Shown here in pieces: positions 2,524-64,000 of a DNA stretch of 64,000 nt. Location of the stretch: assembly GCA_947475995.1 (NCBI GenBank), contig CANJNI010000012.1, positions 39,902 to 103,901 on the forward strand, given 5' to 3'. The notes below the pieces were generated by a model, which did not search any database, was not told where the DNA came from, and worked only from the letters and a program-made list of their open reading frames with translations. How positions within the stretch are numbered: the stretch's first letter is position 1; each line of letters starts with the position of its first letter. This stretch comes from Beijerinckiaceae bacterium (GTDB taxonomy: Bacteria; Pseudomonadota; Alphaproteobacteria; Rhizobiales; Beijerinckiaceae). Position numbers and translations under genes: made by a program.

Positions 2524-2530
2524 TCGGGTT

Positions 2531-45252: not shown

Positions 45253-46050
45253 ATGATCAGGAAGAAAGAAAAGCCATCGATGAGCGCTCAAGCGATTGAA
45301 AGTTATTCGCGGACCGACCGCCTTCCGCTCCTGCGTTGGCTGATCTTCACGGGCGTCACGATATTCGGCTTTGCCATTTGTTGGTATTTCGGCCTGTTCC
45401 GAATGATGTTTCTTAGCGACAAGACTTACATTTCGCTGATCGTGTCGGTTCTTTACGTTCTCACGGCTTTGCACTGTTACACACGTACAAACGTGATTTC
45501 CCGGGAAACCGATCAGGCCAACCAGGTTCTGGCGATCGTCAATCACGGAGTCACGGAGTTCCGGGTTAATGGCAATGTCGTGGAAGCTGGCGACACGGTG
45601 CTTCCGGTCGGGGCGGTCACCACTCACATTCGCAACCTGATTCTGAAATCGAAGTTGCAGGGGCGTCACCGTCTCGATCAGACGCTGCTCTTGCGCGGCC
45701 TCGCCGATACGCTTCGCGGTCCGAATTATCTTGGCAGCTTCGCCAGCGACAGTCTTATGAAGTTGGGCCTGCTCGGCACCATCGTTGGCTTCATCATGAT
45801 GCTCGCGCCAATCGCCGGACTGGACGCCGCCGACAAGGCCTCTGTACGCAGTTCAATGGGCATGATGAGCGATGGCATGGCGGTCGCCATGTACACGACC
45901 TTGAGCGGGCTCATCGGTTCGATCCTGATCAAATGCCAGTATTACATGCTGGACGAAGCGACAGCGAAACTCTTCTCGATGGCGACTGATCTTACGGAAG
46001 TTTTCGTCGTGTCGGTTCTCGAGCGGGGTCACGATGGACAGCTTCGGTAA
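45253..46050 (+). CDS. MotA/TolQ/ExbB-like proton channel family protein
   Basis: SDSLMKLGLLGTIVGFIMMLAPIAGLD..VRSSMGMMSDGMAVAMYTTLSGLIGSILIKCQYYMLDEA. Confidence 0.8.
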   Translation: MIRKKEKPSMSAQAIESYSRTDRLPLLRWLIFTGVTIFGFAICWYFGLFRMMFLSDKTYISLIVSVLYVLTALHCYTRTNVISRETDQANQVLAIVNHGVTEFRVNGNVVEAGDTVLPVGAVTTHIRNLILKSKLQGRHRLDQTLLLRGLADTLRGPNYLGSFASDSLMKLGLLGTIVGFIMMLAPIAGLDAADKASVRSSMGMMSDGMAVAMYTTLSGLIGSILIKCQYYMLDEATAKLFSMATDLTEVFVVSVLERGHDGQLR

Positions 46051-46663
46051 TTACCCGCGCGACGAACCGTTCGATCCCTTCTCGGTTATGTTGTTCAAGG
46101 GTCTACAGGTCGTCGCCTTTCTGTTTTTCATTGCGCTTCTTGTGATGAATCCGGAAGCCAAGACCGGCAAGATCGACACCAAGGCCGAGTTCATCATCTC
46201 GATGGTATGGCCGGACAATCATCCCGACGACGTTGATCTTTATGTCGAGGATCCGGTTGGAAACATCGTCTGGTACCACGAACGCGAATCCGGCTTCATG
46301 GTTCTTGAGCGCGATGACCGCGGCGGCGTGAACGATTTTATCACCGTGAACGGCAAGAAGATTTTGAATCCGATTCGTGAGGAAACCGTCAGTATCCGGG
46401 GTTTTCTGGCCGGCGAATATACGGTGAACATCAATCACTATCTCGCAACTACCGGCGCTCCTGTGCCGATTTCGGTCAAAGTCGAGAAGATCAATCCGCA
46501 GCTGGAAATCATCCACTACGGGACGATCCTCGTGAACCGCGCCGGCGAGGAAAAGACCGCCGTGCGTTTCAAGATTGCCGAAGACGGCAAAATTCTCGAC
46601 GTCAACCAGCGCGAAAAGTCGCTTATTCAATTGACCCGCAGCGCGCGGCGTAACACGAAATGA
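46034..46663 (+). CDS. Single-TM periplasmic-domain protein (ExbD-like topology) with DUF2135/YfaP-like domain
   Basis: N-terminal TM (FKGLQVVAFLFFIALLVM) then DVDLYVEDPVGNIVWYHERESGFMVLERDDRGGVNDFI..AGEYTVNINHY; overlaps the upstream channel gene by 17 nt. Confidence 0.65.
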   Translation: MDSFGNYPRDEPFDPFSVMLFKGLQVVAFLFFIALLVMNPEAKTGKIDTKAEFIISMVWPDNHPDDVDLYVEDPVGNIVWYHERESGFMVLERDDRGGVNDFITVNGKKILNPIREETVSIRGFLAGEYTVNINHYLATTGAPVPISVKVEKINPQLEIIHYGTILVNRAGEEKTAVRFKIAEDGKILDVNQREKSLIQLTRSARRNTK

Positions 46664-46691
46664 AAATCTGCCCCGGGGGAGGCGCAACGAA

Positions 46692-47300
46692 ATGATGTCG
46701 ACCGTATTGGGTATATCGGTCGCTTACGTGGTCCTTGGGGTGGTCTTGCTCCTCATGGGGCTGACGTCGCGCGTTCACTGGCGCTGGAAATCCGCAGCGA
46801 TCATCGTCTCAAGCGTTTTTTTTGTCGCGGTCTTTTTCCAGACTCGCGGACTGCTTGGCTGGCCGGGCATTGGAAAGCTGCCGGATCGCTTTCAGCTTCT
46901 TGGCGTTCGGGTTGTGGAGCCGGACCGCAAGATCGGCGATGCAGGCTCGATTTATTTGTGGGTCGAGGAAATCGACGAAAACAATATCCCTGTGGGAATT
47001 CCGCGCAGCTTCCGGATTCCTTATTCGAAGCCGCTTGCGGAAAAGTCCCAGAAGGCCCGCGACGCGATCATGGAAGGAAATCAGATCGCCGGTACGGCGG
47101 AAGATATTGAAGGCCAAACCGCTTCGCGGGATGACAAGAAAGACTCCGAAAACCCTGAAAATAAGACACCGCTGGAAGGCACCGAACGTGCCGAGGATGG
47201 CCACGCGCGCATTGACATGGACGAACTTCTGCAAAAAATGCAGAAGGTTGAATTTCAGCCCATGCCTGCGGCACTGATGCCGGTCAAGAAGCCGCAATAG
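46692..47300 (+). CDS. Hypothetical protein with two predicted N-terminal TM segments and a charged C-terminal tail
   Basis: 202-aa ORF following the two preceding genes in the same orientation; no family recognised. Confidence 0.65.
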   Translation: MMSTVLGISVAYVVLGVVLLLMGLTSRVHWRWKSAAIIVSSVFFVAVFFQTRGLLGWPGIGKLPDRFQLLGVRVVEPDRKIGDAGSIYLWVEEIDENNIPVGIPRSFRIPYSKPLAEKSQKARDAIMEGNQIAGTAEDIEGQTASRDDKKDSENPENKTPLEGTERAEDGHARIDMDELLQKMQKVEFQPMPAALMPVKKPQ

Positions 47301-47310
47301 TCGGAATTGT

Positions 47311-47336
47311 CGCCGCGACATGTATGTGTCGCGGCG
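47311..47336. terminator. Convergent-gene hairpin, likely bidirectional terminator
   Basis: CGCCGCGACA-tgtatg-TGTCGCGGCG perfect 10-bp stem between convergent CDSs. Confidence 0.65.
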
Positions 47337-47348
47337 TATTGATGCTGA

Positions 47349-48110
47349 TCAGGCGGCGGCTTCGGTCGGGCCCGTCAGCGAAAGAAAGGCCTCTTCGATG
47401 CCGGGCGTTCCGGTTGAGGCCATCAGTTCTGCCGGAGATGTGTCACGCAGAACTTTGCCCTTGTGCAGCAGCACGATTCTGTCGGCGTCGACCACTTCTT
47501 CGCAAAGATGCGTAGCCCATAAAACCGCAACCGAACGTTCGCGCCGCAGCGTATGCATCAGCTTCACGAGTTCCGTGCGGCTTGCCGGATCAAGCCCGAC
47601 AGTGGGTTCGTCCATCAACAGTACGCTTGGTTCGTGAAGCAAGGCGCGTGCAAGCTCGACTCGCCTTTTGTTGCCGCCACTCAATTGTCCACACTTGCTG
47701 TCGGCGCGGTCGGCCAGCCCCAGACGGCTTAGTTCTTTGGCGATTCGTTCTTTTGCTACCGCGCGTGGCATGCCGTGCAATCCCGTATGGAAAAGCAGAT
47801 TTGCCGTCACGCTCAGTTCGGGATCAAGCGTCGGTTGCTGGAACACAATGCCGAGACTGGCAAGCGCTGGCACCGGATTCCTCAACATATCGTGACCCAT
47901 CACCTCGATTCGCCCGGCGTCCGGCGTAAAAAGCCCGGACAACAACTGAAACAATGTCGACTTGCCGGCGCCATTAGGCCCAAGCAGCGCGATAAATTCC
48001 CCTGGACGTCCTACAAACGAAACGCCATTCAGCGCCTTGATTGATCCGTATTTTTTCTCGACATTCTCAAGCAGCAGGACTGGCGTGGCGCCGCTTCCGG
48101 ATTCACTCAT
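47349..48110 (-). CDS. ABC transporter ATP-binding protein (PQQ-dependent alcohol dehydrogenase system type)
   Basis: ALLGPNGAGKSTLFQLLSGLFTPDAG, LSGGNKRRVELARALLHEPSVLLMDEPTVGLD; adjacent to the matching permease, SBP and beta-propeller genes. Confidence 0.85.
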   Translation of the reverse strand: MSESGSGATPVLLLENVEKKYGSIKALNGVSFVGRPGEFIALLGPNGAGKSTLFQLLSGLFTPDAGRIEVMGHDMLRNPVPALASLGIVFQQPTLDPELSVTANLLFHTGLHGMPRAVAKERIAKELSRLGLADRADSKCGQLSGGNKRRVELARALLHEPSVLLMDEPTVGLDPASRTELVKLMHTLRRERSVAVLWATHLCEEVVDADRIVLLHKGKVLRDTSPAELMASTGTPGIEEAFLSLTGPTEAAA

Positions 48111-48243
48111 CACAGCCTCTTGATTTGTGCGTTGCAGCAAAGCCGGATCTCAGCATTATGCTTTTCGGAAGCCAAATCTAAGCATACACTGGCTCGGTTG
48201 CAACGAATGACCTCGCGGTCTGGAACAAAGATACAGAAGCACA

Positions 48244-49239
48244 ATGCGGAAACGTCTGAAACAAGTTCTTGCCGTTGGCGTCCTGGCAGGCTCTGCCTTT
48301 CTTGGGCTAGATGCGTCTGCGCTAGCCAAGGGAACTGGCTATCTTTTTGTCAGCAATGAGAAGACGAACAACATTACCGTACTGGATTCAAAGACGCTTA
48401 AGATCGTCAAGGATCTGAAAACCTCGCGCCGCCCGCGCGATATGCATTTTAATGAAGATCACACGCGCCTCTATGTTGCCTGCGGCGACGATGATGTGAT
48501 CGACGTGATCGATGTCGAAAAGCTGGCCGTGATCGGCAAGATCGCGACCGGCAAAAGTCCCGAGACTTTCGTTGTCGACGAGAAAAAGCGCCGCATCTAC
48601 GTTTCGAACGAAGAGGGCTCGTCACTCTCGATCATCGATATGGATCAGCAGATCACTCTGAATGAAGTCCCCACCGGCGCAGAGCCGGAGGGCGTCATGC
48701 TCAGCGCCGATGGCAAGCTGATTTACGTGACGTCGGAAGTGGGCGATCTGGTGCATCTGGTCGATGTTGAGAGCGGCCATGTCCTTGAGGATGTCATCGT
48801 CGGGACGCGGCCACGCCGCTTCGCGGCAACGCCGGATGGCAAGGAATTGTGGGTCACAACAGAACTGTCCGGCGAAGTCTGGGTTATCGACCGCGAGAAG
48901 TTCCAGAATCTCGGCAAGCTCGATTTCCTGCCGCCTGGTATGAGAAAGACCGATGTGACGCCGGTCGGCATCACAATGACGAAGGACGGCAAGACTGCCT
49001 TTGTGACGCTCGGCCACGCACAGCACATCGCGTTCGTGGACGTGCCGACCAAAAAAGTCACCGGCTACGTTCTGGTCGGCAAGCGTTCCTGGGGCATCAC
49101 GCTTTCCAAGGACGAGAAGACCCTCTACGTCGCCAACGGATTGGGCGATGACGTGACGATCGTCGACGTCGCGAGCCGCAAGGCGCTTCAGTCGGTTCAG
49201 GTCGGCCGTACCCCCTGGGGCATTGTGATCGATGAATAA
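48244..49239 (+). CDS. YVTN-family beta-propeller protein (PQQ-dependent catabolism-associated type)
   Basis: Signal peptide; repeats such as GYLFVSNEKTNNITVLDSKTLKIVKDLKTSRRPRDMHFNEDHTRLYVACGDDDVIDVIDVEKL. Confidence 0.87.
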   Translation: MRKRLKQVLAVGVLAGSAFLGLDASALAKGTGYLFVSNEKTNNITVLDSKTLKIVKDLKTSRRPRDMHFNEDHTRLYVACGDDDVIDVIDVEKLAVIGKIATGKSPETFVVDEKKRRIYVSNEEGSSLSIIDMDQQITLNEVPTGAEPEGVMLSADGKLIYVTSEVGDLVHLVDVESGHVLEDVIVGTRPRRFAATPDGKELWVTTELSGEVWVIDREKFQNLGKLDFLPPGMRKTDVTPVGITMTKDGKTAFVTLGHAQHIAFVDVPTKKVTGYVLVGKRSWGITLSKDEKTLYVANGLGDDVTIVDVASRKALQSVQVGRTPWGIVIDE

Positions 49240-50470
49240 TATCTTGAAGGTAGGTCTTTTCCTGGTCGCTCTCCTGACCGGGACCGGCGCGGCGCTGGCC
49301 CAGTTTCAGCCTGTTGCGCCGCGCCCTGCCTTGCCCCAGAGCGGCGCGGCGCTCAAGCAAATCACGATAGGCTTTATCGATCTTGATGGCGATCCGCGCT
49401 ACGAGCCGATGGAAGTCTATCAGCGGCACATACTCAAGGATCTCGATCCCGCCTACCAAGGAGCCGAGATGGGCGTGGAGGATTCGGTCATCATGAACCG
49501 GTCCACCGGCGCCGAATTCAAGCTGCAGCGTTTCACGTTGAAAAGCGCGGATGCAGCGCTTGCGGCAGTTCAGGAAGGACAGGGCAAGGGGATCAGCTTC
49601 TTCCTGATCGATCTTCCAGCGAGCGCCTACAAGGCTGTTGCTGCCGGAGTGAAGGGTAAGGACGTCCTGCTCTTCAATGTAAGCGCGCCCGAGGATACTT
49701 TGCGGCGCGACATGTGCTCTGCAGAGTTCGTCCACGTCTATCCGAGCCGCGCGCAATTGATGGACGGACTTGTCCAGTTGCTTGTGTCGAAGAAATGGCG
49801 CGACTATCTGGTTCTTGAAGGTCAGACGTCGGAAGATGCGGAGATGACGAAAGCCTTCGTCCGCTCGACCCAGAAGTTCGGCGCCCGCGTCGTCGCACAA
49901 AAGTCCTTCGAAGCAGGGTCCGATCCTCGCAAGCGCGAGCTCAACAATCCAGCGCTCTTGTCAGCCATCAATCGCGACTGGGACATCACGTTTGTCGCCG
50001 ACAGCGCCTTCGATTTTGCTCGCACTGTCTCTTACCAGACCGTCCGACCCCGTCCGGTTGTAGGTTCCATCGATCTGGAGCCTTCGGCCTGGCATTGGAC
50101 TTGGGAGCGAAACGGTGCGCCCCAAGTCAATACTCGTTTCCATCGCATATCTGGCGGCCGCAAGATGGCAGGGCACGACTGGTCAGCCTGGATGGCGGTG
50201 AAGATGGTCGTGCAGGCAGTTGTGCGCACGCGGTCGACAGAATTCCCGGCGCTGCGCAACTTCATCCTCAAGGATGGCTCGTTCGATCCCGCCAAGGGCC
50301 TCGCGGCGAGCGTTCGCCCGTGGGACCATCAGGTCCGTCAATCGATCATCCTCGCTACGCCCTTTTCGATTACCGCGAGCGCGCCCATGGCGGGGTTTCT
50401 GCACCGCCTGAACGAACTTGATTCCCTCGGCGATGACGAAGCCGACACACCCTGCAAACTAAACAGATAG
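49232..50470 (+). CDS. ABC transporter substrate-binding protein (PQQ-dependent alcohol dehydrogenase system type)
   Basis: Signal peptide; ITIGFIDLDGDPRYEPMEVYQRHILKD, LFNVSAPEDTLRRDMCSAEFVHVYPSRAQLMDGLVQLLVSKKWRDYLVLEG; overlaps the beta-propeller CDS by 8 nt. Confidence 0.82.
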   Translation: MNNILKVGLFLVALLTGTGAALAQFQPVAPRPALPQSGAALKQITIGFIDLDGDPRYEPMEVYQRHILKDLDPAYQGAEMGVEDSVIMNRSTGAEFKLQRFTLKSADAALAAVQEGQGKGISFFLIDLPASAYKAVAAGVKGKDVLLFNVSAPEDTLRRDMCSAEFVHVYPSRAQLMDGLVQLLVSKKWRDYLVLEGQTSEDAEMTKAFVRSTQKFGARVVAQKSFEAGSDPRKRELNNPALLSAINRDWDITFVADSAFDFARTVSYQTVRPRPVVGSIDLEPSAWHWTWERNGAPQVNTRFHRISGGRKMAGHDWSAWMAVKMVVQAVVRTRSTEFPALRNFILKDGSFDPAKGLAASVRPWDHQVRQSIILATPFSITASAPMAGFLHRLNELDSLGDDEADTPCKLNR

Positions 50471-50472
50471 TC

Positions 50473-51282
50473 ATGAAACTGATCCATGTCGGCAGGGCTC
50501 TGAGGGCGGTCGCGACGCGCGAGGTCGTCAAGTTCGTGCGTCAGCGGGGAAGGTTGCTTTCCGGACTGGTTCGCCCGCTCTTCTGGCTGGTGGTCTTCGC
50601 CGCCGGCTTCCAGAATGTCTTCGGCGTTTCGATCATCCCACCCTACAAAACCTACATCACCTATCAGGTCTACATCGTCCCCGGCCTGATCGGCATCGTG
50701 CTTTTGTTTCACGGCATGCTGTCGTCGCTCGCGATGGTCTACGACCGCGAGATGGGAATCATGCGCCTGTTGCTGACAGCGCCCCTGCCGCGTTGGGTGC
50801 TGCTGGTTTGCAAGCTTGCGGGCGGCACGGCCCTGGGCGTGCTCCAGTGCTACGCGTTCCTGATCACCTGTATTTTCTTTGACGTGACTTTTGACTGGAT
50901 GGGCTGGGTGACGGTGTTTCCGGCCATTGTGGCGGCCGGCCTCATGCTTAGCGCCATGGGGCTGCTGCTGTCGGTCTATATCCGCCAGCTTGAGAATTTT
51001 GCTGGCGCCATGAACTTTGTGATCTTTCCCATGTTCTTCCTGTCCTCCGCACTCTATCCGCTATGGAAATTGCGCGAGGGTGGCTCGGAAGCGATCTTTT
51101 TCGTCGCTTCGCTCAACCCGTTCACCTACGCGGTTGAACTGGTACGATTCGCACTTTACGGAATGTTCGACTGGTTTTCCTGTTTGGTCGTTGTTGCATC
51201 GACCATCGTGTTTTTCCTGCTGGCGGCCTACGGGTACGATCCGCAACGCGGCATGATCCGCAAGACGCGCGCCGGAACCTGA
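50473..51282 (+). CDS. ABC-2 type permease (PQQ-dependent alcohol dehydrogenase system type)
   Basis: GLVRPLFWLVVFAAGFQNVFGVSIIPPYKTYITYQVYIVPGLIGIVLLFHGMLSSLAMVYDREMGIMRLLLTAPLPRW. Confidence 0.87.
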   Translation: MKLIHVGRALRAVATREVVKFVRQRGRLLSGLVRPLFWLVVFAAGFQNVFGVSIIPPYKTYITYQVYIVPGLIGIVLLFHGMLSSLAMVYDREMGIMRLLLTAPLPRWVLLVCKLAGGTALGVLQCYAFLITCIFFDVTFDWMGWVTVFPAIVAAGLMLSAMGLLLSVYIRQLENFAGAMNFVIFPMFFLSSALYPLWKLREGGSEAIFFVASLNPFTYAVELVRFALYGMFDWFSCLVVVASTIVFFLLAAYGYDPQRGMIRKTRAGT

Positions 51283-51412: not shown

Positions 51413-53587
51413 GTGATAAATCCATTTCGTCGCCTGTTTGCCAATTCAATGAACCGGCAATACGCGCTCGGACTTCGATCGATATTGTGCGTCGCCGCAG
51501 GTCTTCTGATTCTGCTGGAGGCGCTGCCGGCTGCTGCCGCCGACCTTAAGGAACGCCTGACTCCCGAAGTCATGGCGATCGTCTTCCCCAACGCAGGCAA
51601 GCTCGGAAACGAGGAGGGCAAGCCTCCGGCTATTCCGGTTTATCAGGGCGATCAGATTACCGGATATATTTTCTCGACGCTCGATATTGTGGCTGCGCCG
51701 GGCTACTCGAGCGTGCCGTTCGATGTGATTGCGGGCGTCGACCTGACGGGGCGCGTCACCGGCGCGAAGGTGATTTTTCACCGCGAGCCGTACATCATGA
51801 ACGACACGCGCCGTCAGGGTCTGCTCGATACATTCCTGCAGCGTCACAACGGCATGGCCCTGCAAGGCGGCAATTCAGGCGTGCTGCCGCCGGACTACGT
51901 GCAGTCTGCGACGGTTTCGGCGCGCGCCATGCGCGGCGCGATTTTCGATTCGGCCCGTCTGGTTCTGCGCTCGCGCGGCGGGCGGCCGAAAGTGAATGTG
52001 CCGACGCTCGATCTTGAGTCCTTTCAGATCGCCACATGGGAGCAGCTTCTCGAAAAAGGCGCGGTGGTAAAGCGCCGCTTCACGTCCGGCGACGTCGGGC
52101 AGGCGCTCGACAAGGCCGGCGCACGCGGCGGCAAGCTGGAAGACGATCTAGGCAAGCCGGACGAGCTCTACAGCGAAATTCTGACCGGCTATTTTTCGCC
52201 CGCTAGTGTCGGTCGCAACATGATCGGCAGCCGCCCGTTCGACGAATACATGCAACGCCAGACGAAGGGCTCGCATGTTTTCGTGATTGCATCCAACGGC
52301 CCCTACGATTTTCTGGGATCGGATTACAATCGCGCCGCAAAGGGCAACAAATTCGATCGCATCCGCATCGTGCAGGAGAACAATTCCTTCGAATTCGTGC
52401 GGTCGCAATTCCAGCGTCTCGGCACCGGCGGTCCCCAGACAGGCATTCGCGGCAATCGCTATGCGGCGCTTTACGCGCTCGCGCCGGAAGCAAAATTCGA
52501 TCCGCTGAAGCCTTGGCGGCTCGAACTGCTTGTGCATTCAGAAATGCCCGACGGACGCAAGACGATTGCGTTGCCAGTCGATTACAAGATACCCGCAGAC
52601 TACGTGATGATGCCGGAGGCGGAGCCGGTGCCTGCGTGGGTTGATGCGTGGAACGACGCGCGCACAAATGTTTATATTCTCGGCGTAACCCTGATCGTCC
52701 TGACATTGATCCTGATTTTCCAGGCGCCGCTGACAAGAATGACGAAAACCTACCGGTGGATTCGTCACAGCTTCCTGCTTTTCGTGCTTGTCTGGGTCGG
52801 CTGGTATGCGGGCGCTCAGCTCTCCATCGTCAATGTCATCAATTACATGATGGCGCCTTTCCACAATTTCGGCTGGGGCTTCTATCTGGCCGAGCCGCTG
52901 ATGGTGATGATCGCCATCTACACGCTGATTTCGCTGATCCTGTTGGGACGCGGCGTTTTCTGCGGATGGCTCTGCCCGTTCGGCGCGCTGCAGGAACTGC
53001 TCGGGCAGGCGTCTCGCGCGCTGGGACTACCGCAATGGAATCCGTCTGAAAAGTTGCAACGCAAATTGTGGCTCGGAAAATATATTTCCGCCGCAGTTGT
53101 GCTTGGCGTCGCGGTTTTCTCGCTGGATATGGCGGTGACGGCGGCGGAGGTTGAGCCTTTCAAGACTGCGATCACATCGCATTTCACCCGCGCGTGGCCT
53201 TACCTGATCTACGCGTCTGCGCTCGTCGGCATCGGCCTTTTCACAGAACGCGCCTATTGCCGGTTCCTGTGCCCGCTTGGCGGCGTGCTGGCCTTGCTGG
53301 ATCGGTTGCATCTCATCGATCTGCTGAAGCGTCGCCCCGAATGTGGAAATCCCTGCCATCTTTGCGAGCGTTCCTGCCCGGTGCGGGCCATTGAAAGCTC
53401 GGGTAAGATCGTCATGGCGGAATGTTTCCAGTGCCTCGACTGTCAGGTTGAATATTATGACGACAAGCGCTGTCCGCCGCTTGTCAAAGACCGCAAGCGC
53501 AACGATCCTACGCGCTCTTTTAAACCGCGCAGCGCGCCAGTGACGGCGCGCGTGCAGATCAACACCTCGCGGGGAGGCGCAAAATGA
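51413..53587 (+). CDS. NosR/NirI-like membrane protein: FMN-binding domain, TM core, two 4Fe-4S motifs
   Basis: Periplasmic FMN_bind-like domain with QSATVS, FCGWLCPFGALQELLGQ, YCRFLCPLGGVLALLDR, CGNPCHLCERSCPVRAI, CFQCLDCQVEYYDDKRCPP. Confidence 0.87.
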   Translation: MINPFRRLFANSMNRQYALGLRSILCVAAGLLILLEALPAAAADLKERLTPEVMAIVFPNAGKLGNEEGKPPAIPVYQGDQITGYIFSTLDIVAAPGYSSVPFDVIAGVDLTGRVTGAKVIFHREPYIMNDTRRQGLLDTFLQRHNGMALQGGNSGVLPPDYVQSATVSARAMRGAIFDSARLVLRSRGGRPKVNVPTLDLESFQIATWEQLLEKGAVVKRRFTSGDVGQALDKAGARGGKLEDDLGKPDELYSEILTGYFSPASVGRNMIGSRPFDEYMQRQTKGSHVFVIASNGPYDFLGSDYNRAAKGNKFDRIRIVQENNSFEFVRSQFQRLGTGGPQTGIRGNRYAALYALAPEAKFDPLKPWRLELLVHSEMPDGRKTIALPVDYKIPADYVMMPEAEPVPAWVDAWNDARTNVYILGVTLIVLTLILIFQAPLTRMTKTYRWIRHSFLLFVLVWVGWYAGAQLSIVNVINYMMAPFHNFGWGFYLAEPLMVMIAIYTLISLILLGRGVFCGWLCPFGALQELLGQASRALGLPQWNPSEKLQRKLWLGKYISAAVVLGVAVFSLDMAVTAAEVEPFKTAITSHFTRAWPYLIYASALVGIGLFTERAYCRFLCPLGGVLALLDRLHLIDLLKRRPECGNPCHLCERSCPVRAIESSGKIVMAECFQCLDCQVEYYDDKRCPPLVKDRKRNDPTRSFKPRSAPVTARVQINTSRGGAK

Positions 53588-54642: not shown

Positions 54643-55932
54643 ATGGCGAGGAAAGACAACAAACCGGACGGGGATCTGACCCCGGCTGCCGGAAATGGCA
54701 TCCTGAACCGCCGATTGTTCCTTGAAAGAACTTTGATGGCCGGGGCAGGGGGCATCGCTCTGGGCGCTTCAGGGGCCTCGGCAGAGCCATTGACCAATCC
54801 CAAATGGACGATGGAGCCTGGCGCGCCATTCAATCCCTATGGCAAGCCGTCCCGTTACGAGGACAAGACTGTTCGCCAGTTTGCAGCGCCGGCCAATCCG
54901 GCGACGCCGGGCGTCGGTTCGTCGCGCACACCGCATCACTTGCTTGATGGCATGATCACCCCAAACAGCCTGCATTTCGAACGCAGCCATGGCGGCGTGC
55001 CCGATATAGACCCGCAGCAGCATCGTCTGGTGATTCACGGTCTCGTCAAGAAGCCGCTGTCGTTCACGATGGAAGCTTTGTCCCGCTATCCGATGACGTC
55101 GCGTGTTTCGTTCATCGAATGCGGCGGCAACAGCGGCGGACTCAGCGCTCCTGCGGCTGCGCCGCTGAACGTGCAGGGCATTCACGGCTTGCTGTCCTGC
55201 GCTGAATGGACGGGCGTCAAATTGTCGACACTGCTGGATGAGGCGGGCGTCGATCCCGCCGCCAAATGGATCCTCGCCGAAGGCGCTGATTCGCAGTCGG
55301 TCAGCCGCAGTATCCCACTCGCCAAGGCGCTCGATGACGTGCTCGTCTGTCTTTACCAGAACGGCGAACGGATCCGGCCCGAAAACGGCTATCCGGTGCG
55401 TCTGCTGGTGCCCGGCTATTCCGGCAATATGAACATCAAGTGGCTGCGCCGGATCAAACTCGTCGACGCGCCGATCATGACCAAGGACGAAACGTCGAAA
55501 TACACGATCCTGCTGCCGACCGGTAAGGCCTGGCAGTTTGTGTTCCCGCTCGAAGTCAAATCGACAATCACGCGGCCCTCGCCGGGTCTCGATCTCAAGG
55601 GGCCTGGTTTCTATGAAATCTCCGGCCTCGCGTGGTCCGGCAACGGCAAGATCGTCAAGGTGGAAGTCTCCGCTGATGGCGGTAAAAGCTGGGCTCCCGC
55701 AGCCCTGCAGGAACCTGTCCTGTCGAAGGCGCTCACACGTTTTCGCGCCCCGTGGAACTGGAACGGCGGCCCCGCCATTCTCCAGAGCCGTGCGACCGAC
55801 GACACCGGAATGGTGCAGCCGAGCCGTGCGCAGATTATCGCCGAACGCGGTTTGCGCGGCGCTTATCATTTCAATGTAATCCAGAGCTGGAATGTCGACG
55901 AAAAGGGAGTTCTGGCCAATGTCCATGCTTGA
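54643..55932 (+). CDS. soxC: SoxC-like sulfane/sulfite dehydrogenase, Moco-binding subunit
   Basis: Tat-like NRRLFLERTLMAGAGGIALG; HFERSHGGVPDIDPQQHRLVIHGLV, FIECGGNSGG, GYPVRLLVPGYSGNMNIKWLRRI. Confidence 0.88.
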   Translation: MARKDNKPDGDLTPAAGNGILNRRLFLERTLMAGAGGIALGASGASAEPLTNPKWTMEPGAPFNPYGKPSRYEDKTVRQFAAPANPATPGVGSSRTPHHLLDGMITPNSLHFERSHGGVPDIDPQQHRLVIHGLVKKPLSFTMEALSRYPMTSRVSFIECGGNSGGLSAPAAAPLNVQGIHGLLSCAEWTGVKLSTLLDEAGVDPAAKWILAEGADSQSVSRSIPLAKALDDVLVCLYQNGERIRPENGYPVRLLVPGYSGNMNIKWLRRIKLVDAPIMTKDETSKYTILLPTGKAWQFVFPLEVKSTITRPSPGLDLKGPGFYEISGLAWSGNGKIVKVEVSADGGKSWAPAALQEPVLSKALTRFRAPWNWNGGPAILQSRATDDTGMVQPSRAQIIAERGLRGAYHFNVIQSWNVDEKGVLANVHA

Positions 55933-56458
55933 GCGCTCCATTCTTGCCGCAGCCTTCTCGATCGCGGCCGGTCTCGCAGTCGCGGCTGACACGCCGCAAT
56001 TGGGACAACCTATTTCTGAAGCCGATTTGGCCGCCTGGGACATCAGCGTCGGTCCGAATGGCGTCGGCCTGCCGGCCGGCAAGGGTACTGTTGCCCAGGG
56101 CGAGGCTGTGTATGCTGCGAAATGTCAGGCTTGCCACGGCGAGAAGGGCGCTGGTCGCCCCAACGACGTGCTGGTCGGCGGTTTTGATTCGCTGCCCGGC
56201 GATAAGCCCGCCCTGAAAACGGTTGGCAGCTTCTGGCCCTATCCGACGACGTTCTTCGACTATGTGCGCCGCGCCATGCCGTGGACGTCGCCGAAGACTT
56301 TGACCAACGACGAAGTCTATGCCGTGGCGGCCTATGTGTTCAGCCTGAACGGCATCATCAAGGCGGACGAGGTGATGGACGCCCAGACGTTGCCGAAGGT
56401 CAGGATGCCGAATCGGGATGGATTCACCCCCTTTCCGCGTTCGCCAAAAGTCGACTAA
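55919..56458 (+). CDS. soxD: SoxD-like c-type cytochrome (one CxxCH)
   Basis: Signal peptide; YAAKCQACHGEKGAGRPNDVLVGG; overlaps the soxC-like CDS by 14 nt. Confidence 0.8.
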   Translation: MSMLERSILAAAFSIAAGLAVAADTPQLGQPISEADLAAWDISVGPNGVGLPAGKGTVAQGEAVYAAKCQACHGEKGAGRPNDVLVGGFDSLPGDKPALKTVGSFWPYPTTFFDYVRRAMPWTSPKTLTNDEVYAVAAYVFSLNGIIKADEVMDAQTLPKVRMPNRDGFTPFPRSPKVD

Positions 56459-56496: not shown

Positions 56497-57000
56497 ATGA
56501 CTCGCCCATTGGTATCCGTTCTGCTGGCTCTGGTTTTCGTTTCGCGGGCATGGTTCGCCATGGCCGCCACAACGGAAGCCGAGTTCGGTCGCGGATTGTC
56601 GGCATTCAATGCCGGCGATTTCAAAACGGCCTATGAGGCATGGTCTCCTTTGGCGGATGCCAACGAGCCGCGTGCGGAAGCCGGAATCGGGTTCATGTAC
56701 CATCGGGGCCTCGGACTCCCGACGGACAACGAGCTGGCTGCAAAATGGTTTTTCCGGGCTGCTGAACAAGGACAGGCAGAAGGTCAGCTTATGCTGGGCC
56801 TTCTGTATTTCTATGGCACGGGAGTTCCACAGAGCTATATTCACTCCTACGCCTGGTGCGAACTGGCTCAGGATTTTGGTCAGTCGGACGCTCAGCTTTG
56901 TCGTGATTCGGCGATCTCGTATTTGTCGGAAGCCGATATGCGAGAGGGCTATCAGATGATTGCCGATCTACGCGCCAAATATGGCCGTCGCAGAAACTGA
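56497..57000 (+). CDS. Secreted Sel1-repeat (TPR-like) protein
   Basis: Signal peptide; AEAGIGFMYHRGLGLPTDNELAAKWFFRAAEQGQAEGQLMLGLLYFYGTGVPQSYIHSYAW. Confidence 0.85.
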   Translation: MTRPLVSVLLALVFVSRAWFAMAATTEAEFGRGLSAFNAGDFKTAYEAWSPLADANEPRAEAGIGFMYHRGLGLPTDNELAAKWFFRAAEQGQAEGQLMLGLLYFYGTGVPQSYIHSYAWCELAQDFGQSDAQLCRDSAISYLSEADMREGYQMIADLRAKYGRRRN

Positions 57001-57252: not shown

Positions 57253-57906
57253 ATGTCAGAACACGATACTCATTCGACATGCGAACACGCTCACGAGCAC
57301 GAATCCGGCGAAACCGGACTTCGCGCATCGCGGCGTGACGTGATTAAAGGTGTGATTGCTTCAGGCGTTGCGGTTTCGTCGACTGGTTATGTCGTCGCTG
57401 GCCGTCCCGGTGAAGCTGTCGCGCAAACAGCAGGCGCAGTCGAGCGTCTGGTGACGGTGAATGTGAACGGCGCCGATCGTCGCGTCGACGTGCTTCCGCA
57501 GGAAACACTCGTTCAGACGCTGCGCTACAAGCTCGGCCTCACAGGCACCAAAATTGGTTGCGACCATTCCGAGTGCGGCAACTGCACCGTCATGGTTGAT
57601 GGGATCGCCACCTATTCCTGCACCACGCTGACCCAGCGCGTTCGCGGCAAGAAGGTTGTGACCATCGAAGGCATTGCCGGCCCGAACGGTCAGCTGCACA
57701 AGGTCCAGAAGGCGATGCTCGAAGAGATCGCTCCCCAGTGCGGGTTCTGCACGCCTGGCCAGGTCGTGACTGCGGTCGCGCTCCTCAATGAAAACCCGAA
57801 GCCGACCGAAGACGAAGTGCTTGTCGCCATGTCGGGCAACATGTGCCGTTGCGGTGCTTACAACCACTATTTGAACGCGGTCATGCGCGCTTCGAAGGAG
57901 GCTTGA
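57253..57906 (+). CDS. Xanthine dehydrogenase-family 2Fe-2S subunit with Tat signal and His-rich n-region
   Basis: MSEHDTHSTCEHAHEHESGETGLRASRRDVIKGVIASGVAVSS; GCDHSECGNCTVMVDG and CGFCTPGQ..NMCRCGAYN two-cluster pattern. Confidence 0.9.
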   Translation: MSEHDTHSTCEHAHEHESGETGLRASRRDVIKGVIASGVAVSSTGYVVAGRPGEAVAQTAGAVERLVTVNVNGADRRVDVLPQETLVQTLRYKLGLTGTKIGCDHSECGNCTVMVDGIATYSCTTLTQRVRGKKVVTIEGIAGPNGQLHKVQKAMLEEIAPQCGFCTPGQVVTAVALLNENPKPTEDEVLVAMSGNMCRCGAYNHYLNAVMRASKEA

Positions 57907-57907
57907 G

Positions 57908-60310
57908 ATGGCCAAGCTAGTTGGACAGAACTTTATCCCGTACGACCTTGAGGCCCGCGTTACCGGCGCCGCAAAATACGCGGAAGATTTCCGCGCTGAA
58001 GGCATGGTCTTCTGTAAGATCCTGACCAGCCCGGTTCCGCACGCCCGCATTCGTCGCATCGACACCTCTGCCGCCTTGAAGATCAAGGGCGTTCTGGGCG
58101 TGCTGATGGCCGATGAAGTGCCGCAGTTCCCGCCGCCCCAGCCGCCGATTCTCGCCAAGGACGAAACCTTCTTCGTCGGTGAGCCGATCCTCGCTGTTGC
58201 AGCCGAGACCGAGCTGCTTTGCGCAGAGGCTATCGAGGCGATCAAGATCGACTTCGAAATGCTCCCCCATGTGACCGATCCGCTGGAAAGCCTTTTCCCG
58301 GGCGGTCCGAATGCTCGTTCGAACGGCAACGTCGCCGGCGCCCAGATCAACCTTCAGGTCGCCAAGTGGGACGCTGCCGATTTCGCGGCTTCCGGCGACG
58401 ACAAGCTGCCCATGGGCAAGCCCGCTGAAGAGTGGAAGTACGGAGACATTGACGCAGGTTTCAAGGCTTCGAAGCTCGTTATCGACGAGACCTTCGTGGC
58501 TGGCGGTCATTCCCATCATTCGATGGAGCCGCGCACGACCTTCGCTTACTGGCAGGGCGACAAGTGCTTCCTGCATGTATCGAACCAGAGCCACACGGCC
58601 GCTGTTCCGAACATTGCCCGTTTCGTCGGTATTCCGCCGGAAAATCTGGTCATGATCGCGGAGTTCTGCGGTGGCGGCTTCGGTTCCAAGATCGGCGGCT
58701 ACCCGAACATGGCGGTTGCAGCCCTCATGTCGAAGAAGCTGAAGCGTCCGGTCATGAACCGCCTGACGCGCGAAGACGAATACAGCATCGGTAGCGCGCG
58801 CCCGACCTTCCAGGGCCGTATCAAGATGGGCTTCCGTGAAGACGGCAAGCTTCTCGCTGCGGATCTGTATATCGTTCAGGAAAATGGCCCGTATCTCGGC
58901 GCTGGCGACTTCCGTAGCGCCGGTAATGCTCTGTCGATGGTTTATTCGCCAGAATCCATGCGCTGGCGCGGTATTCCGGTGCTGACGAACACGCCGCCGG
59001 TCGGCGCGTTCCGTGGTCCGGGTGAAAACCAGTTCACGGCTTCGATCGAGCCCATGCTCGACAAGGCGGCTCGTGCGTTGGGTGTCGACCGCGTCGCCAT
59101 CCGCTTGATGAACAGCCCGACCGCCACCAGCAAGATTGGTGCGGATCAGGCGCCTGTCACGAGCGCGTTCCTCAAGGACGCGACCGAGAAGGCCGCCCAG
59201 ATGTTCAACTGGGAAGAGCGCAAGAAGAAGTCCGGCCAGAAGAACGGGTCAAAAGTCACCGGTATCGGCATCGGGCAGGGGTATCACACCGCTGGTTCGA
59301 ACGGCTTTGACGGTCTGCTGCGTATCACCCCCGATGGAAAGCTGCACATCCATACCGGCGTCGGCAACCTCGGCACCCACTCGCACACAGCCACTGGCCG
59401 TGTTGCGGCTGAGTTGCTGAATTACGCCTGGACGAACACGGTCATGGAGCGCGGCGACAGCCGTCGTGGTCTTCCGTGGAACAGCAACCAGGCTGGTTCG
59501 CTCACCGCTTCGACACAGTCCCGCACCATGTACGTGGCTGCTGTGGCGATGAAGGCCCAGCTCACCGAAATCGCAGCTGCGATTTTGGGTGGCGCTGCCG
59601 CTGATTACGATCTCGGTGACGAGAAGGTCGTCAGCAAGGCCGACGCGACGAAGTCCATCACCTACGCACAGGCTGCGCAGAAGGCTATGGAACTCGGCGG
59701 CAAGTATGTCGGCAAGGAGCCCCCGAAGGACATCAATCCGGTCACGTTGGACGGTCTGCAGAAGATCGCCGGCACTGGCCTGATTGCAGTCGCCAAGGAC
59801 AGCCTGCCGCGCGTCGGTCTGACGCCCGGCCTGACCACCACGATGGCGGAAATCGAGCTGGATACGGAAACCGGCAAGATCAACATCGTCGAAATGGTCT
59901 GCGTGGCTGACTGCGGAACAGTCCTGCATCCGATGGGCCTCGCTGCCCAGATGCGCGGTGGTAACATCATGGGCATCGGTCAGGTCGCTCTCGAGCGTCG
60001 TGTCTATGATCCCAAGCTGGGTCTGCCGGCTGCCGGAAAGATCTATCAGGCAAAGCTGCCTTCGTTCCTTGACGTTCCCCGGAACATCAAGACCGCTGCG
60101 GTCGAGAAGCCTGATCCGTCAAATCCGATGGGTGTGAAGGGTGTCGGCGAACCTGTCGTGGGTTCTGGCGCCGGTGCGATCACCACCGCGATTGCTGACG
60201 CGCTTGGCGGTCATCTGTTTAACCGTACGCCGGTTTCGGCGGACATGATCCTCAATCATCTGGCCGGTCGCCCTCAGGCGCACAAGCCGCTGCAGATCAA
60301 TACGGTCTGA
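57908..60310 (+). CDS. Xanthine dehydrogenase/aldehyde oxidoreductase-family molybdopterin-binding large subunit
   Basis: RVTGAAKYAEDF, FCGGGFGSKIGG, GAFRGPGENQ, GVKGVGEPVVGSGAGAITTAIADALG. Confidence 0.93.
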   Translation: MAKLVGQNFIPYDLEARVTGAAKYAEDFRAEGMVFCKILTSPVPHARIRRIDTSAALKIKGVLGVLMADEVPQFPPPQPPILAKDETFFVGEPILAVAAETELLCAEAIEAIKIDFEMLPHVTDPLESLFPGGPNARSNGNVAGAQINLQVAKWDAADFAASGDDKLPMGKPAEEWKYGDIDAGFKASKLVIDETFVAGGHSHHSMEPRTTFAYWQGDKCFLHVSNQSHTAAVPNIARFVGIPPENLVMIAEFCGGGFGSKIGGYPNMAVAALMSKKLKRPVMNRLTREDEYSIGSARPTFQGRIKMGFREDGKLLAADLYIVQENGPYLGAGDFRSAGNALSMVYSPESMRWRGIPVLTNTPPVGAFRGPGENQFTASIEPMLDKAARALGVDRVAIRLMNSPTATSKIGADQAPVTSAFLKDATEKAAQMFNWEERKKKSGQKNGSKVTGIGIGQGYHTAGSNGFDGLLRITPDGKLHIHTGVGNLGTHSHTATGRVAAELLNYAWTNTVMERGDSRRGLPWNSNQAGSLTASTQSRTMYVAAVAMKAQLTEIAAAILGGAAADYDLGDEKVVSKADATKSITYAQAAQKAMELGGKYVGKEPPKDINPVTLDGLQKIAGTGLIAVAKDSLPRVGLTPGLTTTMAEIELDTETGKINIVEMVCVADCGTVLHPMGLAAQMRGGNIMGIGQVALERRVYDPKLGLPAAGKIYQAKLPSFLDVPRNIKTAAVEKPDPSNPMGVKGVGEPVVGSGAGAITTAIADALGGHLFNRTPVSADMILNHLAGRPQAHKPLQINTV

Positions 60311-60323
60311 GGAGAACCCGACC

Positions 60324-61322
60324 ATGCTCATCAAAGACATGATGCCGAACTTCGAATTGTTTCGGCCGGCGACACTGAAAGATGCGTTCGCTCTTCTCGA
60401 CCGTTACGGGAAGGATTCCTGGAAGATCGCCGGCGGCCACGACAGTCTGTCGTGGTTCAAGGAACGCGCCAAGCGTCCCAAGGCGGTTGTCGACATCAGC
60501 GCCCTTCCGGATATGAAGGGCGTCAAGGAAACTGCGGATGGCATTGAAATCGGGCCACTGACGACTCTTACCGAGTTGCAGAACAATCCGATCATCAAGG
60601 CTAAGTATCGGCTTCTGTCCGATGCTGCCGCCAAGGTGGCCAGCCCGCAGATTCGTCACGTTGGCACCGTCGGTGGAAACGTCTCCCAGGACGCTCGCTG
60701 TTGGTATTATCGTGGCGGCTTGCCCTGCTATCGCGCGGGTGGCAACACTTGCTTCGCCGACACGCCGGAAGGCGTGAACCGCGAACATGCCTTGTTCGAC
60801 ACCGATCGTTGCGTCACCGTCAATCCTTCGGATACTGCTCCCGCGTTCGTGGCGCTTGACGCCAAGTTCGTTGTTCGCAGCTCGAAAGGTGAGCGGGTTC
60901 TCAGCGCTAATGATTTCTTCATCGGACCGAAAATCGACATCACTCACTTGACGTCGATCCGTCCAGAAGAAATCCTTGTCGCGATCCGCGTTCCCAAGAC
61001 CTTTGCAGGCGCCAATTTCTACTTTGAGAAGGTGGCGGACCGGAATTCATGGGACTTCGCGCTCGTGAACGTGGCTGCGGCAATGATCGTCAAGAATGGC
61101 GCGATCGAAGAGTCCCGCATCGTTTGCGGTTCTGTTAGCGCGGTTCCGCGGCGTCTTCAGGCTGTTGAAGCGATTGTCAAGGGAAAGCCGCAGAATGCGG
61201 ATATCGCCAAGCTGGCTGGTCAGTCTGCGACGCGCGGCGCGCGCCCGCTGAACTACAACCAGTTCAAGATACCGCTGATGGCAAATCTCGTCACGCGCGC
61301 TGTGCGTGAAGCGAAGGCCTGA
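60324..61322 (+). CDS. FAD-binding subunit of the Mo enzyme, PaoB/4-hydroxybenzoyl-CoA-reductase-type with extra Cys loop
   Basis: FELFRPATLKDAFALLDRYG, GTVGGNVSQDARCWYYRGGLPCYRAGGNTCFADTPEGVNREHALFDTDRC. Confidence 0.88.
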   Translation: MLIKDMMPNFELFRPATLKDAFALLDRYGKDSWKIAGGHDSLSWFKERAKRPKAVVDISALPDMKGVKETADGIEIGPLTTLTELQNNPIIKAKYRLLSDAAAKVASPQIRHVGTVGGNVSQDARCWYYRGGLPCYRAGGNTCFADTPEGVNREHALFDTDRCVTVNPSDTAPAFVALDAKFVVRSSKGERVLSANDFFIGPKIDITHLTSIRPEEILVAIRVPKTFAGANFYFEKVADRNSWDFALVNVAAAMIVKNGAIEESRIVCGSVSAVPRRLQAVEAIVKGKPQNADIAKLAGQSATRGARPLNYNQFKIPLMANLVTRAVREAKA

Positions 61323-61330
61323 GGTCAGTA

Positions 61331-61495
61331 ATGGAGCTCTTTCGTTATTCCAGGTCGATCTATGGTGGTGACGGAACGTTGATCGGGGCCTCTTGGGACC
61401 TGTTCGGTTGGTTCGTTGCAGCCGCAGCCGCCTTCATTGTGGTTCACGCCGCTTTGAAAGCGTTTTCGGGAAATAGCAATCTGGATTCGCATTGA
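61331..61495 (+). CDS. Small single-TM protein (54 aa) between the FAD subunit and cytochrome b
   Basis: ATG GAG CTC ... TGA: MELFRYSRSIYGGDGTLIGASWDLFGWFVAAAAAFIVVHAALKAFSGNSNLDSH; below the ORF-track length cut-off; conserved-operon-like placement. Confidence 0.6.
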   Translation: MELFRYSRSIYGGDGTLIGASWDLFGWFVAAAAAFIVVHAALKAFSGNSNLDSH

Positions 61496-61513
61496 GTAAC
61501 GAGAGCTCTTTTA

Positions 61514-62191
61514 ATGCCTGTGTCTGAACTGAAAAAATCCGACGCGTCCGTTCCGGATAACGGACGCGTCGTCAGGCATCGCCTGATTGATAGAATCTAT
61601 CATTGGGTTATGGCTGCCGCTGTGTTCGCCCTTATGGGCACGGCCTTCATGCCGATTTTTGGCATCAAGTTCGAATGGTTGACCATTCACTGGGTGGCGG
61701 GAGTTGTGCTGGCATTTTGCGTTCTGATCCACATTGTCCGAGCTGTAATTTGGCAGGACCGCATGTCGATGGTGATTGATCGCACCGATTTTGCCAACGG
61801 CGCCAAGATCGTCAAACGGTCATTCGGTCAAAAGGTGCCATCTCCGATCAAGGCGGGCAAATACAATGGCTTGCAGAAGTTGTACCATCTTGGCGTAGCA
61901 TTTTTTATGCTGGCTATTATTGGCACCGGCCTTGCCATGTTGAGCAAGATCGACACTCCGTTCTGGAAACGTAATCCCTATTGGCTGGGCGATTCCGATT
62001 GGGGCACGATTTATACAATTCATGGTTTTGGCGCCATGTTTATGGTCAGCATGGTCATGATCCATGTCTACTTTGCGCTTCGTCCTGACGAATGGCATTT
62101 GACGCGCTCCATGTTCCGAGGCTGGATGTCCGGGAAGGAATACAAGGCTCACCACGACCCTGCTCGTTGGCCGGCCAGCGATTCGAAGTGA
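61514..62191 (+). CDS. Cytochrome b556-like subunit (formate dehydrogenase gamma/FdnI-type)
   Basis: RHRLIDRIYHWVMAAAVFALMGTAF, IHWVAGVVLAFCVLIHIVRAV, KLYHLGVAFFMLAIIGTGLAML, IHGFGAMFMVSMVMIHVYFALRPDEW (TM His ligands). Confidence 0.87.
   Translation: MPVSELKKSDASVPDNGRVVRHRLIDRIYHWVMAAAVFALMGTAFMPIFGIKFEWLTIHWVAGVVLAFCVLIHIVRAVIWQDRMSMVIDRTDFANGAKIVKRSFGQKVPSPIKAGKYNGLQKLYHLGVAFFMLAIIGTGLAMLSKIDTPFWKRNPYWLGDSDWGTIYTIHGFGAMFMVSMVMIHVYFALRPDEWHLTRSMFRGWMSGKEYKAHHDPARWPASDSK
61541..61570 (+). promoter_or_regulatory. Perfect 12-bp stem-loop inside the 5' end of the cytochrome b CDS
   Basis: GACGCGTCCGTT-ccggat-AACGGACGCGTC beginning 27 nt after the ATG at 61514; role unknown. Confidence 0.5.
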
Positions 62192-62252
62192 ATTTGCGCG
62201 TCTCCATGCGGAGACGGATAGAAACTGCATCGCGCGTTAAAGGATAATCGAC

Positions 62253-62666
62253 ATGGCCTCCGCATCGGACGGCGTAAGTCAGCTTGCTGCCGCAATCGAC
62301 ACAATCGAAGAAACCTATGAATATATGCTCGCCTATGCGGCCCAGGGGCGTCGTGTTGAGGAAGATGGTAGCAGCAGCAGTATTCGGGAATATCTGAATA
62401 AGTCGGTTGTTGCGCTCGACCTTGTTTGCACTTCAACGCCCGAGATGGCTGGTATTTCAGGTCAAAAAGCTATGGCTGACGCTGAACCCTTTCTTGCTGT
62501 CCTTCGGACGGATGCGAAAGCCGCACAGGCCGCAATCAAGTTCGTATTGTCTCAGCATTCGATTGGATCCCAGATCGTCGACAACCTCAATGCATCGATG
62601 CACGTGAGGGCTCTCCTGACGGATCTTTTCCTGCTTGATGAAGCCCTCAAGATAAGCGGACTATGA
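62253..62666 (+). CDS. Protein of unknown function, helical
   Basis: 137-aa ORF in operon-like position; MASASDGVSQLAAAIDTIEETYEYMLAYAAQGRRVEEDG...; no family recognised. Confidence 0.65.
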   Translation: MASASDGVSQLAAAIDTIEETYEYMLAYAAQGRRVEEDGSSSSIREYLNKSVVALDLVCTSTPEMAGISGQKAMADAEPFLAVLRTDAKAAQAAIKFVLSQHSIGSQIVDNLNASMHVRALLTDLFLLDEALKISGL

Positions 62667-62691
62667 CGAACAGTTCCAGCGCGAGGGCAGA

Positions 62692-63630
62692 GTGACGAGC
62701 GTCGATCCACTGCGTGTCGGAATTGTTGGTCTCGGAGCTTTCGGCTCACGCGTTGCGATGCGGTTGTTGTGGAATGGCTACCATACACTTGGAGTCTATG
62801 ACTGCAATGACATGACGTCTCGCCTTTTCAGCAATGAATATGGCGCGATGGGGCTGGGATCTCCCCGTATGGTCGCGCAAACCTGCGATGTGGTAATCAC
62901 CGTTTTGCCGACTGCCGATGCGCTCCGCGAGGTTTGTTTTGGCTGGGAAAGCATAGCAAAAGGCTTCGGCGGAAAAGGGCTTGTGATCGACCTGGGAGTT
63001 ACTGACCCGGTCGAAACCCAGTCTATCGCCAGAGAGTTCGCGGCTAAGGGTATCAGCTTTATTGATGCACCAGCCTTCGGTTCGCCGGCACAGGCGAAGG
63101 AGGGCGCACTTACGCTCGTGGTTGGAGGCGACGATGACGCTGTTGAAATAGTCAGTCCGATCCTCAACTGCTTGTCAAATCGCATGATCCGTGCCGGCGG
63201 CTCCGGCTCCGCTCAGGCAGCTAGCGCTATTGCAGATTATCTGCATGCCGCAGAACTACTGGCGACCAGCGAGGCAATTCGTCTCGGGACGCAGTTCGGC
63301 TTTCAGCCAGAAACTGTACTGGGCATATGCAATATTCTTGGTGGCGCCGGCCTGCAGGCCTTGATCAGCAAGGATCTCGTTACGCGTAAGTTTCAGTCAG
63401 GCCGAAAGCTTGGTCATGTTCAGCAGAACATTGCCATTGCATCGCACATGGCTTCAAAGTCCAGTATGGCTTTGCCTCTGCTTAGCGCAACCGGCAAAGC
63501 TTGGGCTGACGCCGAGAGTCAGTTTGGATTCGGTGCAGATCAAACCGAAATTCTGAAGTGGCTTGAAAAGATTGTCCCGTTTGACAATACCACCGTGAAA
63601 GACGCTCCAGTGGCCGAACCGATGGCCTGA
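62692..63630 (+). CDS. NAD(P)-dependent oxidoreductase, 3-hydroxyisobutyrate/6-phosphogluconate dehydrogenase superfamily
   Basis: VGIVGLGAFGSRVAMRLLWNGYHTLGVYD Rossmann fold, DAPAFGSPAQAKEGALTLVVGGD, GTG start. Confidence 0.87.
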   Translation: MTSVDPLRVGIVGLGAFGSRVAMRLLWNGYHTLGVYDCNDMTSRLFSNEYGAMGLGSPRMVAQTCDVVITVLPTADALREVCFGWESIAKGFGGKGLVIDLGVTDPVETQSIAREFAAKGISFIDAPAFGSPAQAKEGALTLVVGGDDDAVEIVSPILNCLSNRMIRAGGSGSAQAASAIADYLHAAELLATSEAIRLGTQFGFQPETVLGICNILGGAGLQALISKDLVTRKFQSGRKLGHVQQNIAIASHMASKSSMALPLLSATGKAWADAESQFGFGADQTEILKWLEKIVPFDNTTVKDAPVAEPMA

Positions 63631-63667
63631 TGGCATCGGCGGCGGGCTGGCTTGGGAGGCTATCACC

Positions 63668-64000
63668 ATGGATCGCTATATTCTCAGTGCAGCACTCTCA
63701 GCCTTGCTTATCTGCGGCGGCGTTGCTCTTGCTGACGATGCTTCGGACGCATTCGTTGCCGGTAAGACGAAAGCGTGTCCTTCGTGCGATTTGTCGGGAC
63801 TAGATTTTACCGGCAGGGACTTGTCTCGCTCGAAGCTTGAAAAGGCTAATCTGTCGGGTGCCAAGCTGTCCGGAGCGATCTTGTTTCGGAGCGTCATTCA
63901 GCGTGGTAATCTTTCCAAGGCGGATTTGTCGGATTCTGATCTGAATCGCCTCGATGGAAAATGGGCCGATTTTTCCGGGGCCAATTTTTCAAATTCGCTT
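63668..64000 (+). CDS. Secreted pentapeptide-repeat protein, truncated by window end
   Basis: Signal peptide then CPSCDLSGLDFTGRDLSRSKLEKANLSGAKLSGAILFRSVIQRGNLSKADLSDSDL; no stop before 64000. Confidence 0.82.
   Translation, partial: MDRYILSAALSALLICGGVALADDASDAFVAGKTKACPSCDLSGLDFTGRDLSRSKLEKANLSGAKLSGAILFRSVIQRGNLSKADLSDSDLNRLDGKWADFSGANFSNSL

Follow-up and report, generated by a model that had tools for sequence, protein, structure and literature searches.

A SoxCD/NosR unit, a molybdenum oxidase module and a lanthanide-type importer in a Beijerinckiaceae bacterium: a possible annex of periplasmic alcohol oxidation

Introduction

What could join two molybdenum enzymes of different families, a NosR-type flavoprotein, an ATP-binding cassette (ABC) transporter and an ExbB-like channel in one run of genes? 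The question is raised by a Beijerinckiaceae bacterium in which these genes lie between a tRNA-Val (TAC) gene (44956..45031) and the end of contig C12. Coordinates refer to the window, i.e., the whole stretch of 64,000 nucleotides that was analyzed (C12:39902-103901 of GenBank assembly GCA_947475995.1, here G000; 4.14 Mb, 73 contigs, 96% complete, 1.7% contamination), and genes are on the plus strand unless stated otherwise. C9, C12, C19 and C51 are contigs of G000, other G numbers denote other genomes, and L numbers denote loci. An initial annotation, made from the letters of this stretch, had described a single periplasmic oxidation system. Because a rare-earth-type importer is joined here to a molybdenum aldehyde-oxidase-like module and to a SoxCD/NosR unit, we read the locus as ancillary to lanthanide-dependent alcohol oxidation, more precisely as an annex that transfers electrons and supplies metal for periplasmic, lanthanide-type alcohol oxidation with pyrroloquinoline quinone (PQQ), and we give this reading about equal chances of being right or wrong. 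Its unifying element, the lanthanide-type PQQ alcohol dehydrogenase (PQQ-ADH) system, lies beyond the window. The reading is built on gene content, conserved modules, recurrent neighbors, a SoxD-NosR fusion, two phylogenies and cofactor motifs; what we infer are the substrates, the metal specificity, which way the electrons flow and what the sulfur branch does. It also bears on the open question of why PQQ/lanthanide alcohol-oxidation loci carry Sox-like sulfur proteins (PMC12997753).

Results and Discussion

The strongest single evidence for a new electron-transfer link is a gene fusion. In three species of one genus from another family (G284, G493 and G570), one open reading frame encodes SoxD, a NapH-type Fer4 membrane part and full NosR, and it sits between SoxC and a PQQ-ADH (L214, 7825-11319; L237, 8959-12747; L238, 2593-6258). 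The window has a NosR/NapH-type membrane flavo-iron-sulfur protein (51413..53587), the flavin transferase ApbE (53584..54606), a SoxC-type molybdenum sulfite/sulfane dehydrogenase with a Tat-like (twin-arginine translocation) signal and the molybdenum ligand Cys160 (54643..55932), and a SoxD-like cytochrome c with a CQACH motif (55892..56458). SoxC, SoxD, NosR and ApbE also stand together in G447. Furthermore, PQQ-ADH genes were found near 7 of the 17 NosR rows that belong to the clades of the window and of the fusion and near none of the 42 other rows; these and the other counts of linked loci take in closely related members and should not be read as independent events. A SoxC clade that is linked to NosR and PQQ-ADH and includes loci with a fused SoxD-NosR offers a definite route of electron transfer that can be tested.

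In the phylogeny, the window NosR clusters separately from the NosR of nos operons and from NirS-linked NirI (support 100/99), and its 537 bits are below the curated NosR cut-off of 1000. No NosZ was found above cut-off in the genome of the organism, and without NosZ and with a separate clade, we reject a role in denitrification. A search of PDB sequences with this protein gave no match. The adjoining ApbE gene places it beside the ApbE-flavinylated NapH-like systems. Those with ExaA, in the part of Meheust et al. 2021 (PMC8238504) drawn on here, likewise combine a NosR/NapH-type protein and ApbE with adjoining PQQ-ADHs, but the same part of that account mentions neither a linkage to SoxCD nor a SoxD-NapH-NosR fusion. 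A literature search for papers linking SoxC, NosR and PQQ found none; its one hit names each of them a single time.

Is SoxCD then simply part of a sulfur-oxidation pathway? The window SoxC scores 567 bits against the TIGR04555 cut-off of 420, and it has the SoxC family, the molybdenum-ligand Cys and the SoxC-SoxD gene pair in common with the SoxCD sulfane dehydrogenase of Paracoccus (2xts). In contrast to the latter, it lacks a sox operon, is linked to NosR and belongs to a separate clade: in the SoxC tree, it groups with SoxC of the fusion loci, G164 and G065, apart from 14 sox-operon SoxC proteins (100/96), which come with the SoxY GGCGG end. SoxC of G447 has a long branch, and its place is unsure. 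On this topology, we reject a canonical Sox operon for the window SoxC. The idea survives in another form, since C51 (positions 1-6106, L298) carries a SoxY-type carrier truncated where the contig ends, a flavoprotein resembling flavocytochrome c sulfide dehydrogenase, SoxX- and SoxA-like genes and a TauE-like gene. SoxCD might be part of such a dispersed sulfur-oxidation system, with NosR/ApbE taking its electrons and alcohol oxidation being an unrelated neighbor. We keep this explanation open because of the C51 genes but consider it unlikely: SoxB was not found above cut-off, neither with the C51 sulfur genes nor elsewhere in the genome, the window SoxC is outside the sox-operon clade, and the related SoxC-NosR and SoxC-SoxYZ-like loci adjoin PQQ-ADHs. 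Indeed, SoxC of G164 and G065 adjoins a fused SoxY-SoxZ carrier, and the G164 locus also encodes a XoxF-like PQQ-ADH together with quinoprotein-relay SoxYZ-like and SoxH-like proteins. According to a review of the ped system, SoxYZ-like and SoxH-like proteins accompany lanthanide/PQQ-ADHs, where they may shield PQQ against attack by sulfur nucleophiles (PMC12997753).

The link to lanthanides comes from the ABC transporter. Its ATPase (47352..48119, minus strand, PedB-like, TIGR03864), beta-propeller (48244..49239, PedA2-like, TIGR03866) and ABC-2 permease (50473..51282, PedC-like, TIGR03861) are above the cut-offs of three of the four NCBIfam "PQQ-dependent" models; the periplasmic binding protein (49232..50470, PedA1-like, TIGR03863) matches from end to end yet, with 350 of 414 bits, stays below its cut-off. 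All four parts have a counterpart in the PedA1A2BC/Lut importer. PedA1A2BC is the lanthanide importer of Pseudomonas putida and is required for growth at low La3+ (PMC6839425). Judged by these matches, the window system is probably a lanthanide-type importer. The PQQ-type ABC system named in the initial annotation is real; its likely identity as a lanthanide importer and the PQQ-ADHs had been missed, and it is these that suggest what the locus is for. Since the ATPase lies on the minus strand, where it had been overlooked, the run is mostly but not entirely plus-strand.

Upstream of the importer, the MotA/TolQ/ExbB-family channel (45253..46050) and its partner (46034..46663) were recognized from the outset, and comparison of homologous loci adds a third, membrane-anchored protein (46692..47300) to form a conserved triad. 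G170 and G194 have the triad upstream of an identically ordered set of these four importer genes, and G050 has it close to them, which makes three other genomes in which triad and importer are associated. Neither the third protein nor the partner matches a known family. The partner has one N-terminal transmembrane helix and a periplasmic domain rich in beta strands, whose conserved acidic loops (PDNHPDDxDL..DP and RDDRG) may bind cations; a fold search with it gave no match at E <= 0.001.

A second version of the locus, which runs further, lies on contig C19. C19:56532-78611 corresponds to window positions 41300-63566 and is a diverged version of clpX, lon, tRNA-Val and the whole locus within the same assembly. 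From clpX, lon and tRNA-Val through ExbB to the pentapeptide gene the order is identical in C12 and C19, and the locus proteins are about 56-91% identical. Synonymous divergence (dS) is about 0.6 for clpX and lon and 0.9-1.8 for the locus genes; in the comparison of the genes from clpX to SoxD of both copies, the ratio of nonsynonymous to synonymous divergence (dN/dS) was 0.06-0.15 for ExbB to SoxD, i.e., these genes are under purifying selection. Looking for duplication upstream, on the clpX side, gave only the C19 overlap. C19 may be a related strain that was binned together or a true duplication. Because the window ends where the contig ends, the last gene, a pentapeptide-repeat protein in a PedD-like position (63668..64000), is cut, and what follows it was invisible in the initial annotation. 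On C19, the pentapeptide protein is complete and is followed by a protein of 267 amino acids with a signal-peptide-like start, a cytochrome c and two PQQ-ADHs, both above the TIGR03075 cut-off. The PQQ-ADHs, the cytochrome c and the full pentapeptide protein correspond to PedE, PedF and PedD, the comparison set taken from a review of the ped system (PMC12997753).

All readable PQQ-ADHs of C19 and of the linked loci have the D-x-D signature (DPYDYDE and similar), with an Asp two residues past the catalytic Asp. In PDB alignments, lanthanide enzymes align at the same D-x-D position; the quinoprotein ethanol dehydrogenase 6zcv, which we take to be PedH, has it, whereas two type II quinohemoproteins have Thr there. 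By this signature, the PQQ-ADHs would be of the lanthanide type. The genome has 11 PQQ-ADH-like places in total. One of them is on the window's own contig (C12:14921-18950; L299, 6922-10950), where a further D-x-D PQQ-ADH is accompanied by homologs of the 267-amino-acid protein and of the pentapeptide protein.

The second molybdenum enzyme belongs to the xanthine dehydrogenase (XDH) family. It consists of a 2x[2Fe-2S] subunit with a twin-arginine signal (probable start at 57253; 57253..57906), a molybdenum subunit (57908..60310) and a flavin adenine dinucleotide (FAD) subunit (60324..61322) with a 4-Cys insert that likely holds an extra [4Fe-4S] cluster. They are followed by a small protein of 54 amino acids with one transmembrane helix (61331..61495), a b561-type cytochrome as a candidate quinone reductase (61514..62191) and an all-helical protein of 137 amino acids (62253..62666). 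These six genes form the core of a module that recurs among 80 homologous XDH loci from many phyla, all of them titled metagenome-assembled genomes (MAGs). Cytochrome b is beside XDH in most of the 80 loci with enough sequence, as had been proposed for the path of the electrons in a periplasmic oxidation, and there is good support for this pairing as a conserved module. The small protein is kept between FAD subunit and cytochrome b561 in about 40 loci; 59 of 63 FeS subunits carry the twin-arginine motif, and 57 of 58 FAD subunits have the 4-Cys insert. The 137-amino-acid protein is conserved 3' of cytochrome b561 (motif YEFMLAYAAQG ... DNLNASIHLRALLTDLF); it matches no known family and no Pfam model, and a fold search with it gave no match at E <= 0.001. 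The six-gene module is undescribed and seen only in MAGs; it is widespread in uncultured bacteria and may often serve as a sink for aldehydes in the periplasm. A plasmid search with the XDH subunit gave a single distant match.

The substrate could also be an N-heterocycle or an aromatic compound that is hydroxylated in aromatic catabolism. Among the enzyme's best relatives in NCBIfam and the PDB are 4-hydroxybenzoyl-CoA reductase and quinoline oxidoreductase, and Rieske oxygenase and ring-cleavage-type genes are near several XDH homologs; on C19, the PQQ-ADHs are followed by an extradiol-dioxygenase-like gene, a p-hydroxycinnamoyl-CoA hydratase/lyase (above cut-off) and a Rieske oxygenase. We nevertheless regard this alternative as doubtful, since the window enzyme combines Tat export with the 4-Cys insert, both of which are likewise features of PaoABC, a periplasmic aldehyde oxidase, and since PQQ-ADH genes adjoin the module at L029, L065 and L072. 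The nearest solved enzymes, 4-hydroxybenzoyl-CoA reductase and PaoC, are distant only; they have three subunits and the 4-Cys insert as well (and, in Pao, the Tat leader on the FeS subunit), but the window has the order FeS-Mo-FAD and its own small transmembrane protein, cytochrome b561 and 137-amino-acid protein. In acetic acid bacteria, a PQQ-ADH and a membrane aldehyde dehydrogenase of the XDH family (8gy3) oxidize alcohol to aldehyde and acid in the periplasm, with quinone as electron acceptor. That system uses cytochrome c subunits, and the window enzyme has an FAD subunit and cytochrome b561 instead.

In our model, the importer would supply the lanthanide, possibly energized by the ExbB triad. 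Lanthanide-type PQQ-ADHs such as those on C19 would oxidize alcohol to aldehyde, and the Tat-exported Mo/Fe-S/FAD enzyme would oxidize the aldehyde to the acid, with its electrons passing via cytochrome b561 and the small transmembrane protein to quinone. SoxC and SoxD would be a quinoprotein-associated variant of sulfite/sulfane dehydrogenase, from which SoxD passes electrons to the NosR-type membrane protein, whose flavin mononucleotide (FMN) would be attached by ApbE. This linked side branch might save PQQ from poisoning by clearing away sulfite or carrier-bound sulfur. The more specific proposal, that a quinoprotein-associated SoxCD subfamily feeds SoxD electrons into a NosR-type flavoprotein as the sulfur branch of lanthanide-dependent alcohol oxidation (with a SoxYZ-like carrier or sulfite being oxidized), beside an undescribed quinone-reducing XDH/b561 aldehyde oxidase, is put forward tentatively, as possible rather than probable. 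The ped/exa cluster with PedA1A2BC of Pseudomonas and the lut cluster of Methylorubrum share the four importer parts and the pentapeptide protein, and also the cytochrome c and the lanthanide-signature PQQ-ADH seen on C19. They differ from the window in that the latter has the molybdenum XDH-type oxidase and b561 in place of a cytosolic NAD-dependent aldehyde dehydrogenase (PedI) and adds SoxCD/NosR/ApbE and the ExbB triad.

Several observations weigh against this model. The contig breaks off without any PQQ-ADH gene in the window, and C19 may derive from a related organism that was binned together. The full set of importer, XDH and SoxCD/NosR was seen only in the two copies of this assembly. 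A search of the assembly for PqqE gave nothing above cut-off, despite the many PQQ-ADH-like places; it is possible that external PQQ is used or that a contig is missing. The flavin-attachment motif of the window NosR is altered (YVQSATVSA, SAT without Gly, compared to YVAGATISA in the C9 paralog), and no Pfam FMN-binding domain was detected in it. The XDH subunits stay below every aldehyde-oxidase equivalog cut-off (PaoC, 244 of 1180 bits; PaoA, 144 of 322 bits). Finally, the SoxX-, SoxA- and SoxY-type and flavocytochrome c genes of C51 could be what SoxCD really works with.

A single fixed system, as first described, was not found: neither NosR nor ApbE nor a close SoxC adjoins any of the 80 XDH loci. 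Searched across genomes, XDH and NosR/SoxC homologs are rarely together, and it is the PQQ-ADH context that joins them. What does recur is pairs of adjacent modules, namely, NosR with PQQ-ADH, NosR with SoxCD, the ExbB triad with the importer, and importer with XDH and PQQ-ADH. The last combination is present in one other genome; at L065 (a Pseudolabrys MAG), PQQ-ADH, importer, Sel1 and XDH module stand together without NosR/SoxCD. The modules might have been gathered behind the tRNA gene by chance, as independent operons with no common function. The uniqueness of the complete combination to this assembly, XDH modules elsewhere without NosR and SoxCD, and separate promoter-sized gaps of 124, 130 and 252 bp speak for it. 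It is rather improbable, however, given that both diverged copies hold the same order and are under purifying selection where tested and that the pairwise links recur in other families.

All genes named in the initial annotation are open at their positions, and profile searches gave the expected family matches for the ExbB-like, propeller, binding and ABC-2 proteins, NosR, ApbE, SoxC, cytochrome c, Sel1, the XDH trio, b561, the NAD-binding and the pentapeptide protein. The NAD-binding protein is 3-hydroxyisobutyrate dehydrogenase-like (62692..63630). The Sel1-repeat protein has a signal-peptide-like start (56497..57000); as a full open reading frame, it overlaps SoxD, and its likely start is at 56497. 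In two other loci, a MauG-type di-heme peroxidase is encoded directly 5' of the Sel1-XDH module (L058, 211-2004; L098, 6126-8040), and in L058 it is preceded by a YtkA-like gene.

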